The translations under genes and the position numbers were made by a program. From Erysipelotrichaceae bacterium (GTDB taxonomy: Bacteria > Bacillota_I > Bacilli_A > Erysipelotrichales > Erysipelotrichaceae): a stretch of DNA of 64,000 nt. How positions within the stretch are numbered: position 1 is the first letter of the stretch; the number at the start of each line of letters is the position of its first letter. The notes under the pieces are model-generated. The model was given only the letters and a program-made list of their open reading frames with translations. It searched no databases and was not told the DNA's origin. Shown here in pieces: positions 53,034 through 63,980 of the stretch. The stretch is taken from assembly GCA_017432895.1 (NCBI GenBank), contig JAFRIG010000017.1, positions 1 to 64,000 of the forward strand, given 5' to 3'.

Positions 53034-54350
53034 ATGTCATTTAAGATCGTCCGTTTCAACTGCTGCGGAATGGATGTGCATAAAGACATCATCGTTGCCA
53101 CCGTTGGCATTACCGATCATACGAGTCTGATTACTGATTATCATCAGGAATCATTCACGAGTCTTAATTCCGATTTATACAGACTCTGTGACTGGCTTGA
53201 CAGCTTTGAATGTAAGGAAGTCTGTATGGAATCAACCGGCAAGTACTGGATCCCGATATTCAATGTTCTGGAAGACCATGGAATCAAAGTCTGTCTGGCT
53301 CATCCCAAATACACAAAGGCAATCAAGGGAAAGAAGACCGACAAGAAGGATTCCAAGTGGATCTGTGATCTCTATAAGCACGATATGGTCAAAGGTTCAT
53401 TTATTCCGCCTAAGGCCATCAGAGCTTTAAGAGAGATTGCCAGATACTATCGCAAGCTTGTAGGAATGGATTCATCCGAATCCAACCGTTACCAGAACTG
53501 CATGAGTGTATCTAACTTAGGTATAGGATCCGTATTCAAAGATGTGAATGGCAAGTCTGCCTCCAGAATCATGGATGCGATCATGGAAGCGGAAGACGAA
53601 AGCTGTTTAAGCGATGAAGACATCCTGAAGCTGGTTCATTCCAACTGCAAAAAGAAAGACAAGGTTCTCGATGCGATCAGGGGAGCTCATATTGAATCTG
53701 ACACCAAGTTCAAGATCAAAGTGATCTCAATGCATAAAAAAGAACTGGCCAACCATATCGAAGCGTGTCTGACTGAGATGTTCAAACGTGCACAGCCTTA
53801 TTTCGACCAGTTCATCCACATCACGGAGATCACTGGAATCTCGTTGATCTCCGCTATACTCATTATATCGGAAATCGGTGTGGATATGTCGGTCTGGGAG
53901 AACGCCAGGCAGCTGTGCTGCTGGGCAGGTCTTACCCCGGCCAATAACGAATCTGCAGGAAAGAAGAAATCCGTACGCATCAGTAAGGCAGGACAATATC
54001 TCAAGCCTTTACTTGTACAATGTGCCCTGGCTGCGATCAAGAATCCGAAGGGATATTTTGGAATCAAATATCGAAGGATCAAAAAACGCAGAGGACACAA
54101 GAAGGCCATTATTGCCGTTGCCAGAATGATGTTGATCTGTATCTATCACATGATACTGACCGGAGAATCATTCAAACCATCCGACTATGATGAACTGATG
54201 AATCCTAATCCTAAGCATTTCAAAGAACTGAGCGTATCTGACGCCATTGATTTCTTAAAAGAAAAAGGCGTAGACATCGAAACAATCAAAGCAGCCTATT
54301 CAAATACAGACCCACCGCCCAAACAAACGATAAGTGTACAAACTGCCTAA
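53034..54350 (+). CDS. IS110 family transposase
   Basis: A 438-residue recombinase with both family domains. The N-terminal DEDD/RuvC-like domain has CGMDVHKDIIVATVG near residue 12, CMESTGKYWIP near 63 and KGKKTDKKDSKWICDL near 98. The C-terminal Tnp domain has ITEITGISLISAILIISE near 263, AGLTPANNESAGKKKS near 300 with the conserved catalytic Ser, and RISKAGQYLKPLLVQ after it. Length is at the upper end of the family (300-450). No frameshift or stop is present, so the gene looks intact and could be active. AAAGGAG lies 12 bases before the ATG. Confidence 0.96.
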   Translation: MSFKIVRFNCCGMDVHKDIIVATVGITDHTSLITDYHQESFTSLNSDLYRLCDWLDSFECKEVCMESTGKYWIPIFNVLEDHGIKVCLAHPKYTKAIKGKKTDKKDSKWICDLYKHDMVKGSFIPPKAIRALREIARYYRKLVGMDSSESNRYQNCMSVSNLGIGSVFKDVNGKSASRIMDAIMEAEDESCLSDEDILKLVHSNCKKKDKVLDAIRGAHIESDTKFKIKVISMHKKELANHIEACLTEMFKRAQPYFDQFIHITEITGISLISAILIISEIGVDMSVWENARQLCCWAGLTPANNESAGKKKSVRISKAGQYLKPLLVQCALAAIKNPKGYFGIKYRRIKKRRGHKKAIIAVARMMLICIYHMILTGESFKPSDYDELMNPNPKHFKELSVSDAIDFLKEKGVDIETIKAAYSNTDPPPKQTISVQTA

Positions 54351-54544: not shown

Positions 54545-55501
54545 CTAACGCTGCGACTTGTCGTAAGGCTGACCGGAAGCTTTCGGCGAATGGTCATGTT
54601 TGGACGTGACGGCCAAAGCGATCAGCGTGACGATGAACGGCAGGCTCTTATAGAAGGCCGCCGGCAGACCCAGATTGTTCAAGAGCGGAATACCCGAATA
54701 GGCATTGGCGATGGTCTTACAGAAAGCAAAGAATGCCGCCGCACCTAATAATGGGATCGAACGCCACTGACCGAAGATCAGAACCGACATGGCCAGATAG
54801 CCGTAACCGCCGACGGTTTGCGAATAGTGGGTCGCGACCGGAATGATGTACATCAGACCGCCCATTCCGCCGATGAAACCGGCGATGATCAAAGCGGCAT
54901 AACGGTAACGCTGAACATTGACACCCAGCGATTCGGCAGCCTGCGGATTCTCGCCACAGGCACACATCCTTAAACCGAATCTGGTCTTGCTTAAGACGAT
55001 GGCCGAGATCACAAAGATCGCGATACCGATGAAGTTGGTGATGTAGGTCCTGGTGAAAAACATCTGACCAAGGACCGGAATATCGCCTAAAACCGGGATC
55101 TTTTCGATCAGGAAATCGTTTCTGATCGAAAGGTGTTCCGAACCGTTCTGCAGCACTCTGGCAAAGAAGACACAGAAGGCCGGAGCGAAAGTATTCATCG
55201 CCATACCGACGATCGTCTGATCGGCATTGAGGTTGATGGAAGCCACTGCCAGTAACAGCGTCAGCAAGACACCCATCACCCCCGCAAAAAGCAAGGCGAT
55301 AATCAGTCTCAACTGTCCGGCGACGACACCATCCAGCCATTGCAGACACAGAACGCCCCACATGCAGGACCAGACCATGACGGAATCAAGACCCATATGG
55401 ATGACACCGCTGCGTTCCGAGAACATGCCGCTGACCGAAACGACCAGAAGCGGGATGAAGAAATACATGAAATATCTGGCAATAAAGTAGAACATTTCCA
55501 T
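54545..55501 (-). CDS. BMP-family nucleoside ABC permease, NupQ/YufQ type
   Basis: A 318-residue permease with eight or more hydrophobic segments. SGMFSERSGVIHMGLDSVMV near residue 24 is the mark of this class, INLNADQTIVGMAMNTFAPA near 89 and FGLRMCACGENPQAAESLGV near 178 are further family stretches. With the neighbouring permease it forms the channel of a nucleoside importer energised by the double ATPase. A GGAGAGGAG site in the end of the previous gene precedes the ATG. It is the last gene of the operon. Confidence 0.95.
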   Translation of the reverse strand: MEMFYFIARYFMYFFIPLLVVSVSGMFSERSGVIHMGLDSVMVWSCMWGVLCLQWLDGVVAGQLRLIIALLFAGVMGVLLTLLLAVASINLNADQTIVGMAMNTFAPAFCVFFARVLQNGSEHLSIRNDFLIEKIPVLGDIPVLGQMFFTRTYITNFIGIAIFVISAIVLSKTRFGLRMCACGENPQAAESLGVNVQRYRYAALIIAGFIGGMGGLMYIIPVATHYSQTVGGYGYLAMSVLIFGQWRSIPLLGAAAFFAFCKTIANAYSGIPLLNNLGLPAAFYKSLPFIVTLIALAVTSKHDHSPKASGQPYDKSQR

Positions 55502-55502
55502 A

Positions 55503-56627
55503 CTATCTTAGCTCCTCTCCCGTAACTTTGTTTATTTCCTTCTTCTGCTTGATCAGCTGCTTTTCGATCATCTGTTTTAAGAACAGCGAGAAAGCTGCGA
55601 AATAGATGATGACGGAAGTGATGACATTGACGATCTCCCTTTGGAAACCGAATATCTGCATGTAGTTGCCGCCGACCGTCAAAAAAGCCAGAAACAGCGA
55701 AGCGAAAATCGAACCCAATGGCGAGTTGTTGGCCAGACAGCAGACGGCGATACCGTTGAAGCCTTCGGCTGCCAGCTGTTCCTTCATGGTGATGTAAGTA
55801 CCGGAAACAGACAAATGCGTCAGGCCGCCGCCCAGACCGCACAGGGCTCCGGACAACAGGATCGAGACCATGATGTTGCGCTTGGACTTGATACCCGCAT
55901 ATCTTGAGGCTTCGGCATTCTTGCCGCAGGCCTTGAGTTCATAACCAAGCTGTGTCTTTTCGATCAGCACCCAGGCTAAAATCGCAAAGATGATGGCGAT
56001 CAGGATGCCGATATCTGCCGTCTTGTTGCCGGTGATGGCCGGCATGAAAGCCTGCGGGAGCTTGCATTGGGCGGGAACGGCCTTGGTCTGACCCTTCATC
56101 GCATCGTAGCAGTAATCGTTGATCCAGTGCATCATGTAGTACATCTCGATGTAGTTGAACATGATGGTACCGATAACGACGTTGACATTGAAATAGGCTT
56201 TTAAGATGCCCGGAATTAAAGCCCAGGCCGCTCCGGCGATGATCGAAACGATCAGCGGAACTATCCAGGTCAAAGGCTTAGGCAGATCCTTGGAGAAATA
56301 CAGAGAAGTAAGGATGGCCGCCAAAGCACCGACCGAATACTGGCCCGGTCCGCCGATATTGAAGATACCGGCCTGGAAAGCCAGACACATCGCCACACCG
56401 GTACAAAGGATCGGGGTCGCGAAATAGAATAAGGTACCGAGGTTCTTGATGCCGCCCATCTGGAAACCGCCGGTGATCAGCGTCGTAAACGCCGGAACAC
56501 CCTTGGCCGGATTGGAGATCATCAAAACGATAAATGCGATGATCAGACCGCCGACTATCGCGATCAGAGATGACAGTAAGCCGGTATGATCGGAGATATT
56601 GAATTTCTTCCTGGTCTTTACACTCAT
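55503..56627 (-). CDS. BMP-family nucleoside ABC permease, NupP/YufP type
   Basis: A 374-residue permease, the longer partner. LFYFATPILCTGVAMCLAFQ and AGIFNIGGPGQYSVGALAA near residue 83 are the class signature, and GYELKACGKNAEASRYAGIK near 230 is the loop equivalent to that of its partner. It overlaps the ATPase gene by four bases (ATGA). Related systems import uridine, guanosine and other nucleosides (B. subtilis NupNOPQ, L. lactis BmpA-NupABC). Confidence 0.95.
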   Translation of the reverse strand: MSVKTRKKFNISDHTGLLSSLIAIVGGLIIAFIVLMISNPAKGVPAFTTLITGGFQMGGIKNLGTLFYFATPILCTGVAMCLAFQAGIFNIGGPGQYSVGALAAILTSLYFSKDLPKPLTWIVPLIVSIIAGAAWALIPGILKAYFNVNVVIGTIMFNYIEMYYMMHWINDYCYDAMKGQTKAVPAQCKLPQAFMPAITGNKTADIGILIAIIFAILAWVLIEKTQLGYELKACGKNAEASRYAGIKSKRNIMVSILLSGALCGLGGGLTHLSVSGTYITMKEQLAAEGFNGIAVCCLANNSPLGSIFASLFLAFLTVGGNYMQIFGFQREIVNVITSVIIYFAAFSLFLKQMIEKQLIKQKKEINKVTGEELR

Positions 56628-58162
56628 GCCTGTTTCTCCTCTCTCTTGACACCGGCCATATACAAGCCCATCTCTTCGACCGAAACGACTTTCGGATCGA
56701 GGTTGCCCATGATCTCGCCTTCAAACATGACAATGACGCGGTCGGCGACGTCCATGACTTCATCGAGTTCAAATGACATCAGCAGGACCGCCTTTCCTTC
56801 ATCACGCTGTTTGACCAGTTCCTTATGGATGAATTCGATAGCCCCGACATCCAGACCCCTGGTCGGCTGAACGGCGACCAAAACTTCAGCGTTCTGGTCG
56901 ATCTCACGGGCGACGATCGCTTTCTGCTGGTTACCGCCCGACATCGAACGGGCCATCGTGATCTTGCCCTGACCGGAACGGATATCAAAACGATCGATCA
57001 GTTCATCGGCATAGGAATCGAATTTGTTGAATTTGAGGAAACCTGTCTTGGAAACGAATTCAGGCTTGAAGTAGTTCTTTAAAGCGAGGTTATAGGACAG
57101 CGGATAATCCAGGATCAGACCGTATTTGTGACGGTCTTCCGGGATATGCGACATGATCAGGTTCCTGTCCCTGATCGACTTGCCGGTATAATCGATACCG
57201 TTGATCTCGATCTTTCCCTCGTCGATCGGCATGATACCGGTCAGACCGTAGATCAGTTCGCTCTGCCCGTTGCCGTCGATTCCGGCGATCGCCAGGATCT
57301 CACCCTTTCTGACGGAGAAGGATACGTCGTTGACGACCTTTTTCTTGGTCTCGTCGTTGATCATGGTCAGATGTTCGACCTTCAAAACCTCTTCGCCGGG
57401 CTGAGCCGGTTTCTTTTCGACGTGGAAACTGACTTCCCTGCCGACCATCAGTTCACCCATCTGGGTGGTGGTGGTATCGGCCGCATTCAAAGTATCCACC
57501 AGACGTCCGCGGCGCAGGATGGTGACCCTGTCCGATACTCTCTTTATTTCCTCGAGCTTATGGGAGATGAACAGGATCGTATGGCCTTCTCTGGCCAGAC
57601 CCTTCATGATCTCCATGAGTTCGTCGATCTCTTGCGGAGTCAAAACGGCAGTAGGCTCATCGAAGATCAGTATTTCTGCTTCACGATACAGCATCTTTAA
57701 GATCTCACAGCGCTGCTGCTGACCGACCGTGATGTTTTCGATCAAAGCATCCGGGTCCACAGCCAGACCGTATTTCTGGGAAAGCTCCACTACCTTCTTG
57801 CGGCAGCTGTCCATATCCAGGAAGGGTCCCTTCAAGGTCTCACTGCCTAATATAATGTTCTGTAAAACCGTATAATTCTGGACCAGTTTGAAGTGCTGGT
57901 GCACCATACCGATACCAAGCTCGGTCGCCACGCGCGGGTTGGTGATCTTGACTTCTTTTCCCCTGATGGCTATCGTGCCTTCTTCAGGCGTATACATACC
58001 AAAAAGCACACTCATCAGCGTCGACTTGCCCGCACCGTTTTCCCCAAGCAGGGCATGGATCTCTCCTTTGCGGATATCCAGGCTGATGTCGTTGCAGGCG
58101 ATGATGCCCGGGAACCTTTTGGTTATGTGACGGAACTCGATAATGTTTTCCGTTTTTTCCAT
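56624..58162 (-). CDS. BMP-family nucleoside ABC transporter ATPase (two ATPase domains)
   Basis: A 512-residue tandem ATPase. The N-terminal half has Walker A LLGENGAGKSTLMSVLFG near residue 36 and VGQQQRCEILKML near 146. The C-terminal half has IAGIDGNGQSELIYGLTG near 292, which is the degenerate second Walker A, and MSGGNQQKAIVAREID near 408. It belongs to the same class as RbsA/YufO. It is encoded between the lipoprotein and permeases, and its partners decide the substrate class, here nucleosides. Confidence 0.95.
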   Translation of the reverse strand: MEKTENIIEFRHITKRFPGIIACNDISLDIRKGEIHALLGENGAGKSTLMSVLFGMYTPEEGTIAIRGKEVKITNPRVATELGIGMVHQHFKLVQNYTVLQNIILGSETLKGPFLDMDSCRKKVVELSQKYGLAVDPDALIENITVGQQQRCEILKMLYREAEILIFDEPTAVLTPQEIDELMEIMKGLAREGHTILFISHKLEEIKRVSDRVTILRRGRLVDTLNAADTTTTQMGELMVGREVSFHVEKKPAQPGEEVLKVEHLTMINDETKKKVVNDVSFSVRKGEILAIAGIDGNGQSELIYGLTGIMPIDEGKIEINGIDYTGKSIRDRNLIMSHIPEDRHKYGLILDYPLSYNLALKNYFKPEFVSKTGFLKFNKFDSYADELIDRFDIRSGQGKITMARSMSGGNQQKAIVAREIDQNAEVLVAVQPTRGLDVGAIEFIHKELVKQRDEGKAVLLMSFELDEVMDVADRVIVMFEGEIMGNLDPKVVSVEEMGLYMAGVKREEKQA

Positions 58163-58239: not shown

Positions 58240-59415
58240 TTACTGCTCGAAGTAAGTTACCGCAACGTACTTGTAGCCGTCAACAGGAGCACCGTTGACA
58301 CCGTCGACTTCCGTCGGCAGCGTGTCATGAACAGCGATTACCTGCTGCTTGACAGCGTTGTATTCTTCTTCCGTGAAGCTGTTCCAGTTCTCAGCTCTGT
58401 AAGGAGCCAGGATAGCACCGTCTTCCTTGGCACCGAGTCTGATCAGACCGGCATCCGTGTAAGCGGACCATTCAGCACCGCCGGCATAAGCAGCCTTGAC
58501 GGCTCTGTAGATCGTGATCTCCAGATCCTTCATAGCCGAAGTGACGAATAACGGCTCATTTTCCGCACCGTCAGCAGCTCTGGTGAAGTATTCATCGGTA
58601 TCGACACCGACGATCTTTCTGTTCTCACCGTCTTTAGCAGCCTGGATGACCGAGTTGACGATCGTACCGCCGCAGGAGAAGATGATCTCCGTACCGTTGG
58701 TATACCATTCGGAAGCTCTGGTAACGATATCCGGAGAAGCATCGAATGTACCGGTATAGAAGTACTTCATTTCGATAGCGCCTTCAGCCAGACCCAGCTC
58801 TTCAGCAGCGTCCTCGGCACCCTCGATGAAGCCGTAACCGAATCTGACGACAGCCGGAACAGCCATACCGCCTAAGAAGGCGAGTTTTCTGTAACCGTCT
58901 TTAACGACAGCATAACCGGCCATGTAGCCGCAGTCCTGCTCAGCGAAAGTGATCATCGCCAGGTTGTCCTGATGATCGAGTGAATCATCGACACCATCGT
59001 AGTCGTAGTCGATGTTGTAGAGGTCATCGGCATCGACGAAGATGACTTTTACATCAGGATAGTTAGGAATTTCCTGGCAAAGTGCCGCATCCCACAGGAA
59101 GCCGACAGCGACCAGGACATTGGCTGACATCTGATTGACAGCCTGCTCGAAGATGGTCGTTCTCGATGCGTCATCGGAACCCGCCGGCTGCAGATAAGTA
59201 TACTTTAAGCCGTTCTCTTCGCAATAGTCTCTGATACCATAGAATGAGTGCTCGTTGAAGCCGCCATCATAAATGGAACCGAGGTCTGCCAGGAAGACGA
59301 CATCGTAGTGTTCGTCACTGCTGGCCGGAGTAGTCTCGCTTTCTTCCTTCTTGCCGCAGCCGAATAAGCTGCAAACCAGCAGAAGAGCGAGAGCTAACGT
59401 AAGAAATTTCTTCAT
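58240..59415 (-). CDS. BMP-family nucleoside-binding lipoprotein
   Basis: A 391-residue lipoprotein of the basic membrane protein (PnrA/Med/BmpA) family. The signal peptide ends in the lipobox CSLFGC, so the Cys near residue 20 is lipidated. VVFLADLGSIYDGGFNEHSF near residue 37 is the family opening that lines the nucleoside site. NVLVAVGFLWDAALCQE near 100 and IIFSCGGTIVNSVIQAAKDG near 250 follow. The start at 59415 is set by AAGGAG. An upstream in-frame ATG at 59457 would put the signal peptide behind a charged extension. It is the first gene of the importer operon. Confidence 0.93.
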   Translation of the reverse strand: MKKFLTLALALLLVCSLFGCGKKEESETTPASSDEHYDVVFLADLGSIYDGGFNEHSFYGIRDYCEENGLKYTYLQPAGSDDASRTTIFEQAVNQMSANVLVAVGFLWDAALCQEIPNYPDVKVIFVDADDLYNIDYDYDGVDDSLDHQDNLAMITFAEQDCGYMAGYAVVKDGYRKLAFLGGMAVPAVVRFGYGFIEGAEDAAEELGLAEGAIEMKYFYTGTFDASPDIVTRASEWYTNGTEIIFSCGGTIVNSVIQAAKDGENRKIVGVDTDEYFTRAADGAENEPLFVTSAMKDLEITIYRAVKAAYAGGAEWSAYTDAGLIRLGAKEDGAILAPYRAENWNSFTEEEYNAVKQQVIAVHDTLPTEVDGVNGAPVDGYKYVAVTYFEQ

Positions 59416-59515
59416 TTTTTCTCCTTCTTTCTTGTTTTTATGATCTGCATACATCAAAAAAGCTTTCTTTTGATCATCTCAATTCTGCTTCTTCAATGTC
59501 TGCATACCTAATTTG

Positions 59516-59562: not shown

Positions 59563-60207
59563 CTATGCCTTCCAGGGACCCAGTTTTGTACAATACGCCA
59601 TGGTTTTATCCAGCGCCTTATCCAGGATAAAACCGGTCAGAAAGACCCCTGCCAGGGTACCTACACCCACAACACCGCCCAGGATAAAACCGATGATAAA
59701 GAATAAGCCGTCCGATATCATCTGCGCATAGCTGATATCGATATGGAAGTATTCATTGAGAAATAGCGGGATGAACTGGAAACAGCCGACCCCCATTTGA
59801 CAACCTATGCCCATACCATAACCGATCCCTGTTGTGATCAGACCGACGATCAGGATCACGACTCTCATATATAGTGAAGTGCTTTCTAAAGGAAAAGCCG
59901 TTCTCACCAGAGTCTCGAAGACATCGATCAAAGGTCCGCCGATCACTACTCCCAACAAAGTCCCGGGACCCAGATGTTTTCTTATAAGCAAGAAGATCAG
60001 GATGGCCTGAATGACGTTGCAGATGGTGGAGATCGTGCCATAGGAAAGGCCAAACCTGCCGTGCAAACCATCCACAAAGACCGAGATCGGATCGGTCCCC
60101 AGTCCGCAGGCATAGTAACAGCCGATCCCCAGTTCCGAGATCATGGTCGCCAGAAAGCTGATGAAAAAGCGTACCCAAAAAGAGCGCCAATCAATGACTT
60201 TCATCAA
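59563..60207 (-). CDS. YczE/YitT-type integral membrane protein
   Basis: A 214-residue protein with about five or six hydrophobic segments. GIGCYYACGLGTDPISVFVD near residue 28 and FGLSYGTISTICNVIQAILI near 52, and later LGGVVGVGTLAGVFLTGFIL, match the YczE/YyaS group, whose function is mostly unknown. The start overlaps the upstream phosphorylase stop (TGATG). Its position at the end of a nucleoside phosphorylase run and just before the importer suggests a role in moving a nucleoside or base, but this is inferred from context only. Confidence 0.82.
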   Translation of the reverse strand: MMKVIDWRSFWVRFFISFLATMISELGIGCYYACGLGTDPISVFVDGLHGRFGLSYGTISTICNVIQAILIFLLIRKHLGPGTLLGVVIGGPLIDVFETLVRTAFPLESTSLYMRVVILIVGLITTGIGYGMGIGCQMGVGCFQFIPLFLNEYFHIDISYAQMISDGLFFIIGFILGGVVGVGTLAGVFLTGFILDKALDKTMAYCTKLGPWKA

Positions 60208-61013
60208 TGATCCCTGAGATCCTTTAGATCCTCAAGGCCATCGATGATCTCGATCGCCCGCAAAGTGATCTTACTCATCAGTTCGACCTTTTTGGCGTAA
60301 TCGTCTTTATTGCTGGTGGACATCGAACCGTAGTTATTACCCAGATAATCGCCACACATCAGGATAGTCCCTGCTCGGATACCGCCTAAAAGCGAAGCGA
60401 CGGTAAACAAGGCAGAAGACTCATTCTCCACCGCCAGAGCTCCGGCATCTTCCCAGACTTTGACTCTTTCCAGGTATCCTTCATGAGCACCCGGCGATTC
60501 CATATAGAAAGAGTCGTGGCTTCTGACGATCCCTAAATAGGGTTTTACGCCATATTCCAGACAGGCCTGACGCAACGCCGAAACGACATCCACATCCGCC
60601 ACAGCCGGATACTCCAATGGGATATACTCTTTGGAAGCTCCTTCACCTCTGATGGCTCCGGTCGCGATCACGAAAGCATCGCTTGGCAGATTGGGTTGCA
60701 ATGAGCCGGCCGTACCCATCCTGATCATCGTCTTGACCCCCAGATGTTTGAGCTCTTCGACCGCGATCGAAACGGCCATGGCTCCCATGCCGGTACACAT
60801 GATCGACAAGGGAACGCCATGATAGGTTCCCGTATAAGTCGGATTGCCCCTGGATATAGCTACCAGTTTTGCCTCATCGAAGTATTTGGCGACCATCTCG
60901 CATCTGCCGGGATCGGCCGGCAGGATGAAGTGCTTGCCGCAATCATTTTCATCCAGGCCGATATGCCACATCTTACCCTCAGCGTTGGTCAGTTTTGCCG
61001 ATCTATATTTCAT
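60204..61013 (-). CDS. Nucleoside phosphorylase, third of three tandem copies
   Basis: A 269-residue PNP/UDP-family phosphorylase that splits nucleosides with phosphate to base plus ribose 1-phosphate. ILPADPGRCEMVAKYFDEA near residue 30 (PGDP-like phosphate loop), MCTGMGAMAVSIAVEEL near 70, RMGTAGSLQPNL near 97 and AVENESSALFTVASLLGG near 195 are the uridine phosphorylase pattern. The usual P-G-D-P reads P-A-D-P here. It overlaps the previous phosphorylase by 11 bases. It is a distant paralogue of the two phosphorylases encoded upstream. Confidence 0.92.
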   Translation of the reverse strand: MKYRSAKLTNAEGKMWHIGLDENDCGKHFILPADPGRCEMVAKYFDEAKLVAISRGNPTYTGTYHGVPLSIMCTGMGAMAVSIAVEELKHLGVKTMIRMGTAGSLQPNLPSDAFVIATGAIRGEGASKEYIPLEYPAVADVDVVSALRQACLEYGVKPYLGIVRSHDSFYMESPGAHEGYLERVKVWEDAGALAVENESSALFTVASLLGGIRAGTILMCGDYLGNNYGSMSTSNKDDYAKKVELMSKITLRAIEIIDGLEDLKDLRDH

Positions 61014-61806
61014 ATTCGACTCCTTTGATCAGTTTGGACATCGCCGCTACCGCGATCTCAATGATGTCGTCGATCCTTCTTTGATAATCCTTTTCATAAT
61101 CCATCGCTTCACCGCTCGCCAGATTGTCAGTCACGACATAAATGCACCCGGCCTGTAGCTGCAGTATCGAAGCTACGGTAAACATGGTCGCACACTCGTT
61201 ATCCACGCAACTCACCCCGACTTTCTGCCAGGGAGCTATCCTTTCCGCTACCCCCTCATGGGCAAAAGGTGACTCCAGGAAAAGTCCGTCATGGGTCCTG
61301 ATGATGCCGGTCTTGACTTCCTGTTTCAGCTCCTTGGCACTTTGAAGCAGGGCAAAGAAAGCATCCAGATCGCTGATGGCGGGATATTGAATGTTGACAT
61401 ATTCCAAAGTCGCCCCTTCACAACGACAAGCCCCCGTCGGCACAAAGATACTGCCAGGTTTGATATTAGGATCGATGGCGTAGCAGGAGCCGACTTTGAT
61501 CATCCGTTTACAGCCGATATGGCGCAGTTCCTCGACCGCGATCTCCGTAGGCATACAGCCGTTGCCGATAGACATACAAGAGATCCGATCGCCCTTATAA
61601 GTACCCGTATAGGTGATGTATTCCCGATGGAAGGCTTCTCTTTTCGCATCATCAAAGAGATCCTTGATCTTCTCCACTCTTTCCAGATTTGAAGTCAGGA
61701 TGCAGCCTTCACCGATCTGACTTTCATTGATGCCCAGATGATGGACCTTATTGTCTTTCTCATACTGAGGAAGCGAATCAAAACCGTTCTTGATCTTGTT
61801 TTCCAT
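61003..61806 (-). CDS. Nucleoside phosphorylase, second of three tandem copies
   Basis: A 267-residue PNP/UDP-family protein. ILTSNLERVEKIKDLFDDA near residue 35 replaces the PGDPxR phosphate loop and lacks its Gly-Asp, so phosphate binding may differ. MSIGNGCMPTEIAVEELRHI near 75, KVGSCYAIDPN near 100 (GTG replaced by GSC) and CVDNECATMFTVASILQLQ near 195 depart from the family consensus. It is therefore the most divergent of the three and may be specialised or regulatory. Its ATG overlaps the upstream stop (TAATG). Confidence 0.85.
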   Translation of the reverse strand: MENKIKNGFDSLPQYEKDNKVHHLGINESQIGEGCILTSNLERVEKIKDLFDDAKREAFHREYITYTGTYKGDRISCMSIGNGCMPTEIAVEELRHIGCKRMIKVGSCYAIDPNIKPGSIFVPTGACRCEGATLEYVNIQYPAISDLDAFFALLQSAKELKQEVKTGIIRTHDGLFLESPFAHEGVAERIAPWQKVGVSCVDNECATMFTVASILQLQAGCIYVVTDNLASGEAMDYEKDYQRRIDDIIEIAVAAMSKLIKGVEYEI

Positions 61807-62639
61807 TATCTGATTACCCCCTTCTTCTCCATTTCCGCGATGATCTCGCTCGCTCTGACGGCGATCTTGGCACAGACCAGGATTCTTTTATCCATGAAAT
61901 CATCCTCGAAAGCCTCCGGATAGGCGATCCTTGAATCAGGACCCGTGTAGTAGATCGTATCTTCCACCATCGAAGTATGGGAGACACAGATCGACCCGCA
62001 TCTTAAACCCAGCTGCGGTCCTACCGTAAATAACGTCGCCGACTCGTTTTCGACCATCTTGACCCCGGCATCGACCCAGGGTTTCATCCGCTCATAGGTA
62101 TCGATCATCGCCGTGGAAGTCTCTCTATAATAGGAATCGTGAGCCCGGTAAAGGCCGACGATCGGATCTTCGCCATATTCTTTGGCCGCCATGATCAAAG
62201 CCTTGGTCACATAGGGATCGGCGATCGCCGGATATTCCGCCGGTACGTATTCATAGGAATTGCCATCCCCTCTGACACAGCCTGTCGCAATGATGATGCG
62301 ACCGGGCTGATAGTCCGTCAGTAGAGCTGCTCCGGTCCCGACCCTGATCAGATTCTTCATGCCGATCTGCACGCCTTCTTCCGCCACCGTCGAAACCGCC
62401 AGAGGTCCCATGCCGGAAGAGATGACCGAGATCGGTGTATCGTTTTGTGTGACACCGGTATAGGTATAGTAGGTACGCTGGCCATTGACGAAATGAGCTT
62501 GTTTAAAACAGTCCGCGATGACTTTGGAACGGGCCAGATCGCCGGGCATTAAAACAGTTTCCGCAATATCGCCTTCCTTGAGACCGGTAAAGTAGAGCCT
62601 TCCTTGACTGTCGGTATATTTCTTTTCTCTTTTTAACAT
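61806..62639 (-). CDS. Nucleoside phosphorylase, first of three tandem copies
   Basis: A 277-residue PNP/UDP-family phosphorylase. VLMPGDLARSKVIADCF near residue 29, VISSGMGPLAVSTVAEEGVQ near 72, VGTGAALLTDYQPGRIIIA near 99 and MVENESATLFTVGPQLGLR near 203 are intact family motifs, so it is the most canonical of the three. Uridine phosphorylase-like specificity is the best guess. GGAGGATTAG precedes the ATG, one base after the amidohydrolase stop. Confidence 0.92.
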   Translation of the reverse strand: MLKREKKYTDSQGRLYFTGLKEGDIAETVLMPGDLARSKVIADCFKQAHFVNGQRTYYTYTGVTQNDTPISVISSGMGPLAVSTVAEEGVQIGMKNLIRVGTGAALLTDYQPGRIIIATGCVRGDGNSYEYVPAEYPAIADPYVTKALIMAAKEYGEDPIVGLYRAHDSYYRETSTAMIDTYERMKPWVDAGVKMVENESATLFTVGPQLGLRCGSICVSHTSMVEDTIYYTGPDSRIAYPEAFEDDFMDKRILVCAKIAVRASEIIAEMEKKGVIR

Positions 62640-63980
62640 CTAATCCTCCTTCACATAACCCGTCCTGACATTGAGTTCATGGATCATGTCGTTGCATTTA
62701 CGGATGATGTATCCTTCATCGAAATTCTGTATCTTCTTGTTTCTGACTTTCAGACTGCCGGCCACAAAGACTGTATCCACCGCATGACCGGTTCCGGCAT
62801 ATAAGAGATTGCCGATCCTGTGATCGCGATCGGTCAAAGACAGATCATCTTCCATATTGACCAGGACCAGATCCGCCTGATAGCCTTCCTTGATCGCACC
62901 AAGATCTTCATAACCTAAAGCCCTGGCACCATTGATACTCATCATCTTGAAAGTCGTACCGGCATCCATGACCGTAGGATCCAAAGTGATGGCCTTCTGC
63001 AGATAAGAACCGGCCTTGCCTTCCCTGATCATGTCTTTCGTGGCACTTGAAGCCTCCCCGTCACAACCCATCGCCACCGGAATGCCTCTTTGTAACATCT
63101 GGGCGATCTTGGGAATGCCATCCGAGATCTTCATATTTGTATTGGGACAATGGACCGGAATGGCCTTGGTCCTGGCGATGATGTCCAGCTCATGATCGGA
63201 AAGCCAGATCGAATGCGCCAGCAGGGTCTTTTCATCCAGGATACCCAAATATTCCAAAGCCTCCGCCTCGCCATTCAAGCCATATTCTCTGGCGACTCTT
63301 TCGGTCTCCATCTTGCCTTCTCCCAGATGGGTGTGATAGATAAGGCCTCTTTCATTGGCCCAGGCCTTTAAAGCCTTGGCCATTTCTCCCGACACGGCCG
63401 GAAGACCTGCCGGAGCCACCGATGCTCTCATTAAACCGTTGTTTCGGCCATGGGTCTTTTTATAGACCTCTTCGCTTCTTCTGATCGCTTCATCCACGCT
63501 GATGATCGGCGTCACTTCATTCTCCGGCACATCGGTCGTCGAAATACCGAAAGTCGTGCGGATACCCGCATCTTCAAAAGCCTTCAACGTCGCATCGAGA
63601 TGTTCGTAGCCTCCCATCTCATTGATGGTCGTCGTTCCGAAACGCATAGCCGAAAGACATGACAGCAAGGTCGCATAATAGTAGTCTTCATCGCTCATCG
63701 ACTCCTCAAACTTGAAAAGACGCACCAGCCAGTCCGTGATCACCAGGTCGTCAAGAGGTCCCTTGATGAAAGTCTGGTAAACATGGGAGTGGCAATCCGT
63801 GAAACCCGGCAGCGCCAGCATGTTGTGGGCATCGATGACACTGGCCCCGGGACATTCGTCAAGTTCTATCCTTTCTGCGATCTTTTTGAAACGGCCATCG
63901 GCTATCAAGATATCCCTGGTTCTGGTACTAAGATCATCCAGATCGGCGATATCCGCATTTCTGATCAGAAATTCACTCAT
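62640..63980 (-). CDS. Amidohydrolase, nucleobase/nucleoside deaminase type (TRZ/ATZ family)
   Basis: A 446-residue metal-dependent amidohydrolase that probably removes an amino group from a purine or pyrimidine base or nucleoside. Metal sites are LPGFTDCHSHVYQTFIKG near residue 58 (HxH), YHTHLGEGKMETERV near 212, LLAHSIWLSDHELDII near 248 and VAMGCDGEASSATKDMI near 303 with the catalytic Asp. Guanine, cytosine and S-adenosylhomocysteine or methylthioadenosine deaminases share this pattern. It is the first gene of the run of three phosphorylases, an order that suggests deamination first, then phosphorolysis. AAAGGAG precedes the ATG. Confidence 0.9.
   Translation of the reverse strand: MSEFLIRNADIADLDDLSTRTRDILIADGRFKKIAERIELDECPGASVIDAHNMLALPGFTDCHSHVYQTFIKGPLDDLVITDWLVRLFKFEESMSDEDYYYATLLSCLSAMRFGTTTINEMGGYEHLDATLKAFEDAGIRTTFGISTTDVPENEVTPIISVDEAIRRSEEVYKKTHGRNNGLMRASVAPAGLPAVSGEMAKALKAWANERGLIYHTHLGEGKMETERVAREYGLNGEAEALEYLGILDEKTLLAHSIWLSDHELDIIARTKAIPVHCPNTNMKISDGIPKIAQMLQRGIPVAMGCDGEASSATKDMIREGKAGSYLQKAITLDPTVMDAGTTFKMMSINGARALGYEDLGAIKEGYQADLVLVNMEDDLSLTDRDHRIGNLLYAGTGHAVDTVFVAGSLKVRNKKIQNFDEGYIIRKCNDMIHELNVRTGYVKED

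Follow-up and report, generated by a model that had tools for sequence, protein, structure and literature searches.

Complementary active-site halves in two adjacent nucleoside phosphorylase paralogues of an Erysipelotrichaceae bacterium

Why does a bacterium keep three related nucleoside phosphorylase genes in one row? The question is raised by the window studied here, that is, a stretch of 64,000 nucleotides (positions 1 to 64,000 of contig JAFRIG010000017.1, assembly GCA_017432895.1, Erysipelotrichaceae bacterium). It is part of a 2.29 Mb genome which holds 11 PF01048 genes in all. Three tandem, coupled genes of this NP-I family, here called NP1, NP2 and NP3, lie on the minus strand 3′ of an amidohydrolase gene. 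A preliminary description of the locus suggested that each has a separate substrate or that they form mixed hexamers. In our view it is quite likely that NP1 and NP2 are the subunits of a single, heteromeric NP-I phosphorylase, in the simplest case (NP1-NP2)3. We base this reading on residue complementarity and on strict co-inheritance.

Two half-sites on two chains

All three proteins clearly belong to PF01048 (NP1 81.9, NP2 99.7 and NP3 135.1 bits, cut-off 25.1) and are mutually about 40% identical. For the AlphaFold monomer models of NP1 (pLDDT 74.6) and NP2 (pLDDT 79.9), the structural matches are uridine phosphorylases from the hexameric family, 3qpb being the best. The motif differences noticed earlier are all as read: NP1 has PGDL and RVGTG and thus the PGD and GTG motifs, NP2 has neither (TSNL and KVGSC) and NP3 has PADP and RMGTAG. 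The PAD of NP3 is a minor variation, however, as PGD is found in 8 of 19 NP3 rows.

NP-I phosphorylases are textbook homohexamers in which the dimers exchange two residues. In the E. coli purine nucleoside phosphorylase (PNP) each partner of a dimer contributes its His4 and Arg43 to the active site of the other; the phosphate ligands are Arg24, Arg87, Ser90 and, from the neighbour, Arg43 (PMC6193948). In E. coli uridine phosphorylase (Udp) each site is likewise formed by two subunits (PMC7226091). We included E. coli Udp and DeoD from the MG1655 record in our alignment, where DeoD His4, Arg43, Arg24, Arg87 and Ser90 correspond to Udp His8, Arg48, Arg30, Arg91 and Thr94; Udp numbering is used for residues below. 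There are no gaps around the donor residues.

The 23 and 25 alignment rows represent 22 and 24 distinct loci, one contig being doubled (L054 = L076). NP1 keeps the acceptor residues Gly26, Asp27, Arg30, Arg91, Gly93, Thr94 and Glu198 in 22 of 22 loci. At the position of the donated His8, 20 of these loci have Phe, Cys, Arg or Gln instead, and the donated Arg48 has become Ser or Gly throughout a diverged clade (see below). In NP2 the equivalents of His8 and Arg48 are kept in every row, Gly26 is lost and Arg91 is Lys in all rows, and Asp27, Gly93 and Thr94 decay; in the diverged clade Arg30 is lost throughout and Thr94 mostly. By comparison, 55 other family members keep His8, Gly26, Arg30, Arg91 and Glu198 without exception and Arg48 in all but one. 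Parsimony within the clades counts six changes of donor residues, all of them in NP1, and 23 changes of acceptor residues, all of them in NP2. With the donated residues included, NP1 does not have the full active-site set in one chain, and the NP2 chain lacks acceptor residues for phosphate binding.

NP1 and NP2 share the fold, the family PF01048 and the alignment of donor and acceptor residues with the hexameric NP-I enzymes (E. coli Udp and DeoD, S. pyogenes UP 3QPB). Whereas the known members are homomeric and carry both half-sites on each chain, the halves are split here between two genes. Complementary half-site loss in strictly paired paralogues resembles prozyme and donor-subunit pairs (T. 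brucei S-adenosylmethionine decarboxylase, deoxyhypusine synthase; HisGS-HisZ), in which a catalytically dead paralogue is conserved beside an active one. As in these pairs, the dead paralogue would be expected to complete or activate its partner. The families concerned are, however, unrelated to NP-I.

We suggest that the enzyme could be built in the following way. NP1 and NP2 are probably functional only together, in a mixed complex. NP1-NP2 dimers would assemble as a trimer of dimers into a hexamer. The working site would be on NP1, which would bind phosphate and ribose, and a His and an Arg from NP2 would reach across and complete it. The site of NP2 itself would not bind phosphate, and NP2 would be a structural donor subunit, inactive alone. 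Each dimer would then have one working site, giving three working sites in the hexamer and not six. The amidohydrolase, probably a deaminase, and a BMP-ABC importer might supply a purine-like nucleoside.

Several observations weigh against this proposal. NP1 of the window still has Arg48 and lacks only His8, and two NP1 proteins from Oscillospiraceae/Clostridia (L070 and L071) retain both donor residues. Diverged NP1 proteins have an Arg at the preceding position 47 which might substitute for Arg48. The alignment rows are phylogenetically non-independent, yet the residue changes all go in one direction. NP1 forms a graded series from L070 and L071 with both donor residues over the majority without His8 to the diverged clade without either, which fits a progressive commitment to pairing. 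As for NP2, the equivalents of Lys91 and Glu198 are invariant in a site that is otherwise decaying, and NP2 of the window retains Arg30; therefore the site of NP2 may retain some function. Lys104 and Glu204, as these two residues are numbered in NP2 of the window, possibly make a salt bridge within the protein or belong to a pocket put to a new use.

The invariance of this residue pair amid decay would also suit a regulatory pseudoenzyme. NP2 would then act on an NP1 with complete homomeric sites of its own, and the Lys91/Glu198 pocket would bind an effector. A passage of PMC10795190 describes a precedent from elsewhere, namely short-form ATP phosphoribosyltransferase HisGS, a catalytic subunit which is activated by a regulatory subunit. 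But sites between two NP1 chains would be incomplete, given the losses of His8 and, in the diverged clade, of Arg48, and we hold this explanation to be improbable. Somewhat better, though still doubtful, are the prospects of a bolder version of the split-site enzyme: the first heteromeric NP-I phosphorylase, (NP1-NP2)3 with three split sites, in which the NP2 site has been repurposed around Lys91/Glu198, for example as an effector pocket. In the open-licence PubMed Central (PMC) literature we found no heteromeric NP-I phosphorylase.

If the split-site reading is true, the pair would show plainly how an oligomeric active site can undergo subfunctionalisation. With such a pair one could also ask directly whether a hexamer needs all six of its sites and in what way its dimers influence one another, a matter still debated for E. 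coli PNP. The annotation of both genes as 'uridine phosphorylase' would need to end.

Strict pairing and purifying selection

The block recurs in congeneric genomes with identities of 89–93% for NP1, 79–84% for NP2 (nine other genomes) and 81–85% for NP3. Thus, the arrangement described earlier, three coupled genes of one family behind one amidohydrolase, is not due to chance. The close relatives with matching loci are Erysipelotrichaceae/Solobacterium-like metagenome-assembled genomes (MAGs), mostly from the ruminant gut. Among about 120 related genomes NP1 and NP2 are found in an identical set of 12. NP1 stands directly upstream of NP2 in 22 of 22 pairs, and the start codons permit junction lengths from about −11 to +14 nt.

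Diverged NP1'-NP2' pairs are present in Erysipelotrichaceae, Oscillospiraceae and other Bacillota. Compared with the proteins of the window or of locus L049, NP1' is about 44–55% and NP2' about 37–45% identical. Directly after these pairs there is often a gene related to that of the amidohydrolase (L077, L079, L080, L081, L082). The other neighbours (pnp, trmB-like, pseudouridine synthase, Mur ligase and CTP synthase genes) were considered as clues to the substrate, but they are varied and probably incidental. Two MAGs have two NP1-NP2 pairs each, all intact (L070 and L075; L071 and L079), which suggests different specificities of the paralogous pairs. In these MAGs one pair lies with NP3, amidohydrolase and BMP-ABC genes and the other lies separately. 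In L070–L072 (Oscillospiraceae/Clostridia) a GntR-type regulator gene is inserted between NP2 and NP3, for example at L070:8790-9569 (Pfam-checked in L070).

In a quick tree of the NP-I family, NP1, NP2 and NP3 form a group that excludes Udp and the remaining paralogues (support 93). Within it NP3 and NP1 are nearer each other (support 89), and the NP1 and NP2 subtrees have matching clades. The pair is rare: among 392 sampled genomes of the phylum only that of the window scored as having an NP2. Apparent NP2 matches from further genera of the class, with E values around 1e-41 to 1e-54, turned out to be ordinary EME-type members by tree.

The loss of several conserved catalytic residues could be taken to mean that NP2 is the product of a decaying pseudogene, a chance remnant of a recent tandem duplication. 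We reject this explanation as hardly credible at all. NP2 is under purifying selection with a ratio of nonsynonymous to synonymous polymorphism (pN/pS) of 0.18, compared with 0.09 for NP1 and 0.16 for NP3; the frames are uninterrupted, congeneric orthologues are 79–84% identical, and relatives of NP2 are found in other Bacillota at the low identities given above. The preliminary description had named an NP2 that is inactive and unconserved in relatives as a finding that would refute its reading. Half of this applies: inactive alone NP2 probably is, but it is well conserved.

Amidohydrolase and possible substrates

The locus is one of nucleoside import and breakdown. The amidohydrolase and its relatives from the clusters form a recognisable subfamily (HTHL[GA]EG, GCDGEASS), within which the motifs DCHSH, HTHLGEG, LAHS and GCDGEASS are conserved. 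Its best solved relative is 4f0r, a methylthioadenosine/S-adenosylhomocysteine (MTA/SAH) deaminase, and its best NCBIfam match is 5'-deoxyadenosine deaminase with 286.2 bits against a cut-off of 522. As the cut-offs of the best matches are not reached, 5'-deoxyadenosine/MTA/SAH deaminases are related, but the function cannot be assigned from them. We consider it probable that the enzyme deaminates nucleosides or bases; our best guess for the substrate is an aminopurine nucleoside or base. The earlier hint at aminated nucleosides is thus plausible from the branch of nucleoside and purine deaminases to which the enzyme belongs.

In the P. aeruginosa-type pathway an MTA deaminase works with a methylthioinosine phosphorylase. 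Here, too, a TRZ/ATZ amidohydrolase is paired with an NP-I phosphorylase; unlike there, the amidohydrolase is of a distinct subfamily (GCDGEASS versus GTDGAASN), and there is a pair of phosphorylase genes. MTA/SAH salvage is not needed as the sole role of the locus, since a separate MTA/SAH nucleosidase gene exists elsewhere in the genome (C51; 111 bits, cut-off 73.8).

Uridine phosphorylase can be rejected as the identity of NP1, NP2 and NP3. They score 153, 158.5 and 202.7 bits against TIGR01718 (uridine phosphorylase, cut-off 280.3 bits), and the positions of the uracil-binding Gln166 and Arg168 fall into an alignment gap in all three. They further differ from the known hexameric enzymes at Met197, which is replaced by Asn in all NP1, all NP3 and the window-type NP2, and by His, Gly or Ser in the diverged NP2. 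The Asn stands beside the ribose-binding Glu198, so that an unusual sugar, or a sugar with an unusual substitution, may be involved.

Could the three proteins nevertheless be independent homomeric enzymes with different substrates? His8 contacts the 5' side of the ribose, so that its loss from NP1 can be read as a sign of a 5'-deoxy or otherwise 5'-modified nucleoside, and NP2 would be a phosphate-independent nucleosidase or another enzyme. The best matches of the amidohydrolase point in this direction, as do the Glu198 and Lys91 which are present in every NP2 row. This explanation gives no account, however, of the invariant phosphate-contacting Arg48 and of His8 in an NP2 whose own phosphate site is gone, nor of the Arg48 loss in diverged NP1. 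NP1 and NP2 are also never seen apart, and MTA/SAH is already served by the nucleosidase of C51. We therefore regard independent enzymes as unlikely for the pair.

NP3 and the surrounding genes

For NP3 a separate enzyme fits better, because it keeps both half-sites and occurs without NP1 and NP2. The donor and acceptor residues are present in 19 of 19 rows, except that Gly26 is Ala in 11 of them, and four congeners (L051, L052, L053, L055) have amidohydrolase, NP3 and YczE genes with neither NP1 nor NP2 at the locus. NP3 is probably a phosphorylase in its own right, complete and from the same sub-clade, homomeric and presumably homohexameric. Hence the two suggestions made at the outset divide among the genes: a mixed oligomer is favoured for NP1 with NP2, and an enzyme on its own for NP3.

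Table 1. Features of the locus with their positions in the window
Feature	Position	Strand	Basis or remark
Amidohydrolase (TRZ/ATZ, cog0402-like)	62640-63980	-	PF01979 190.5 bits; metal-ligand motifs intact
NP1, putative NP-I subunit	61806-62639	-	Complete acceptor (phosphate/ribose) half-site; Phe17 for donated His8
NP1 Phe17 codon	62589-62591	-	Replaces donated His8
NP2, NP-I paralogue	61003-61806	-	Decayed phosphate half-site (S39/N40/K104); donated His23 (= His8) and Arg61 (= Arg48) invariant
NP2 His23 codon	61738-61740	-	Equivalent of Udp His8/PNP His4 donated to the neighbour
NP2 Lys104 codon	61495-61497	-	Replaces phosphate-binding Arg91 (Udp)/Arg87 (PNP)
NP2 Lys104 and Glu204	61495-61497 and 61195-61197	-	Equivalents of Lys91 and Glu198
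NP3, probable NP-I phosphorylase	60204-61013	-	Donor and acceptor halves intact; Ala for Gly26
YczE/YitT-like membrane protein	59563-60207	-	NF052291 69.9 bits (below cut-off 205); PF02588 24.6 bits; conserved position
BMP/PnrA-like nucleoside-binding lipoprotein	58240-59457	-	PF02608 92 bits
ATPase of BMP-system ABC transporter	56624-58162	-	PF00005, two ATPase stretches
ABC permease A	55503-56627	-	Position and conservation beside BMP gene
ABC permease B	54545-55501	-	Position and conservation beside BMP gene

NP1 abuts the amidohydrolase gene, NP1 and NP2 overlap by 1 nt (TAATG), and NP2 and NP3 by 11 nt. The range 59563-63980 first assigned to the phosphorylases and the amidohydrolase also covers the YczE/YitT-like gene, then left unnamed. 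This gene is coupled to NP3, its ATG at 60204 overlapping the NP3 stop by 1 nt; such coupling is seen in nearly all clusters. The amidohydrolase does not stand at the front of the operon, as had been assumed: a carbon-nitrogen hydrolase gene (contig 63973-64731), beyond the window, precedes it and overlaps its start by 8 nt. An Rfam search for a riboswitch hinting at the substrate yielded none, and its only match was a tRNA.

Further upstream, also beyond the window, lie a divergent nucleoside hydrolase gene, a fourth NP-I gene (NP4), a cytidine deaminase gene and an isomerase-like gene. On the same contig, at L009:13236-14429, a protein of 397 aa weakly matches sulfoquinovose isomerase and has no match in Pfam; its gene has a conserved position beside those for cytidine deaminase and NP4. 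At the other end, just past the transporter genes, the open reading frame 53034-54350 resembles, by eye, an IS110-type transposase.

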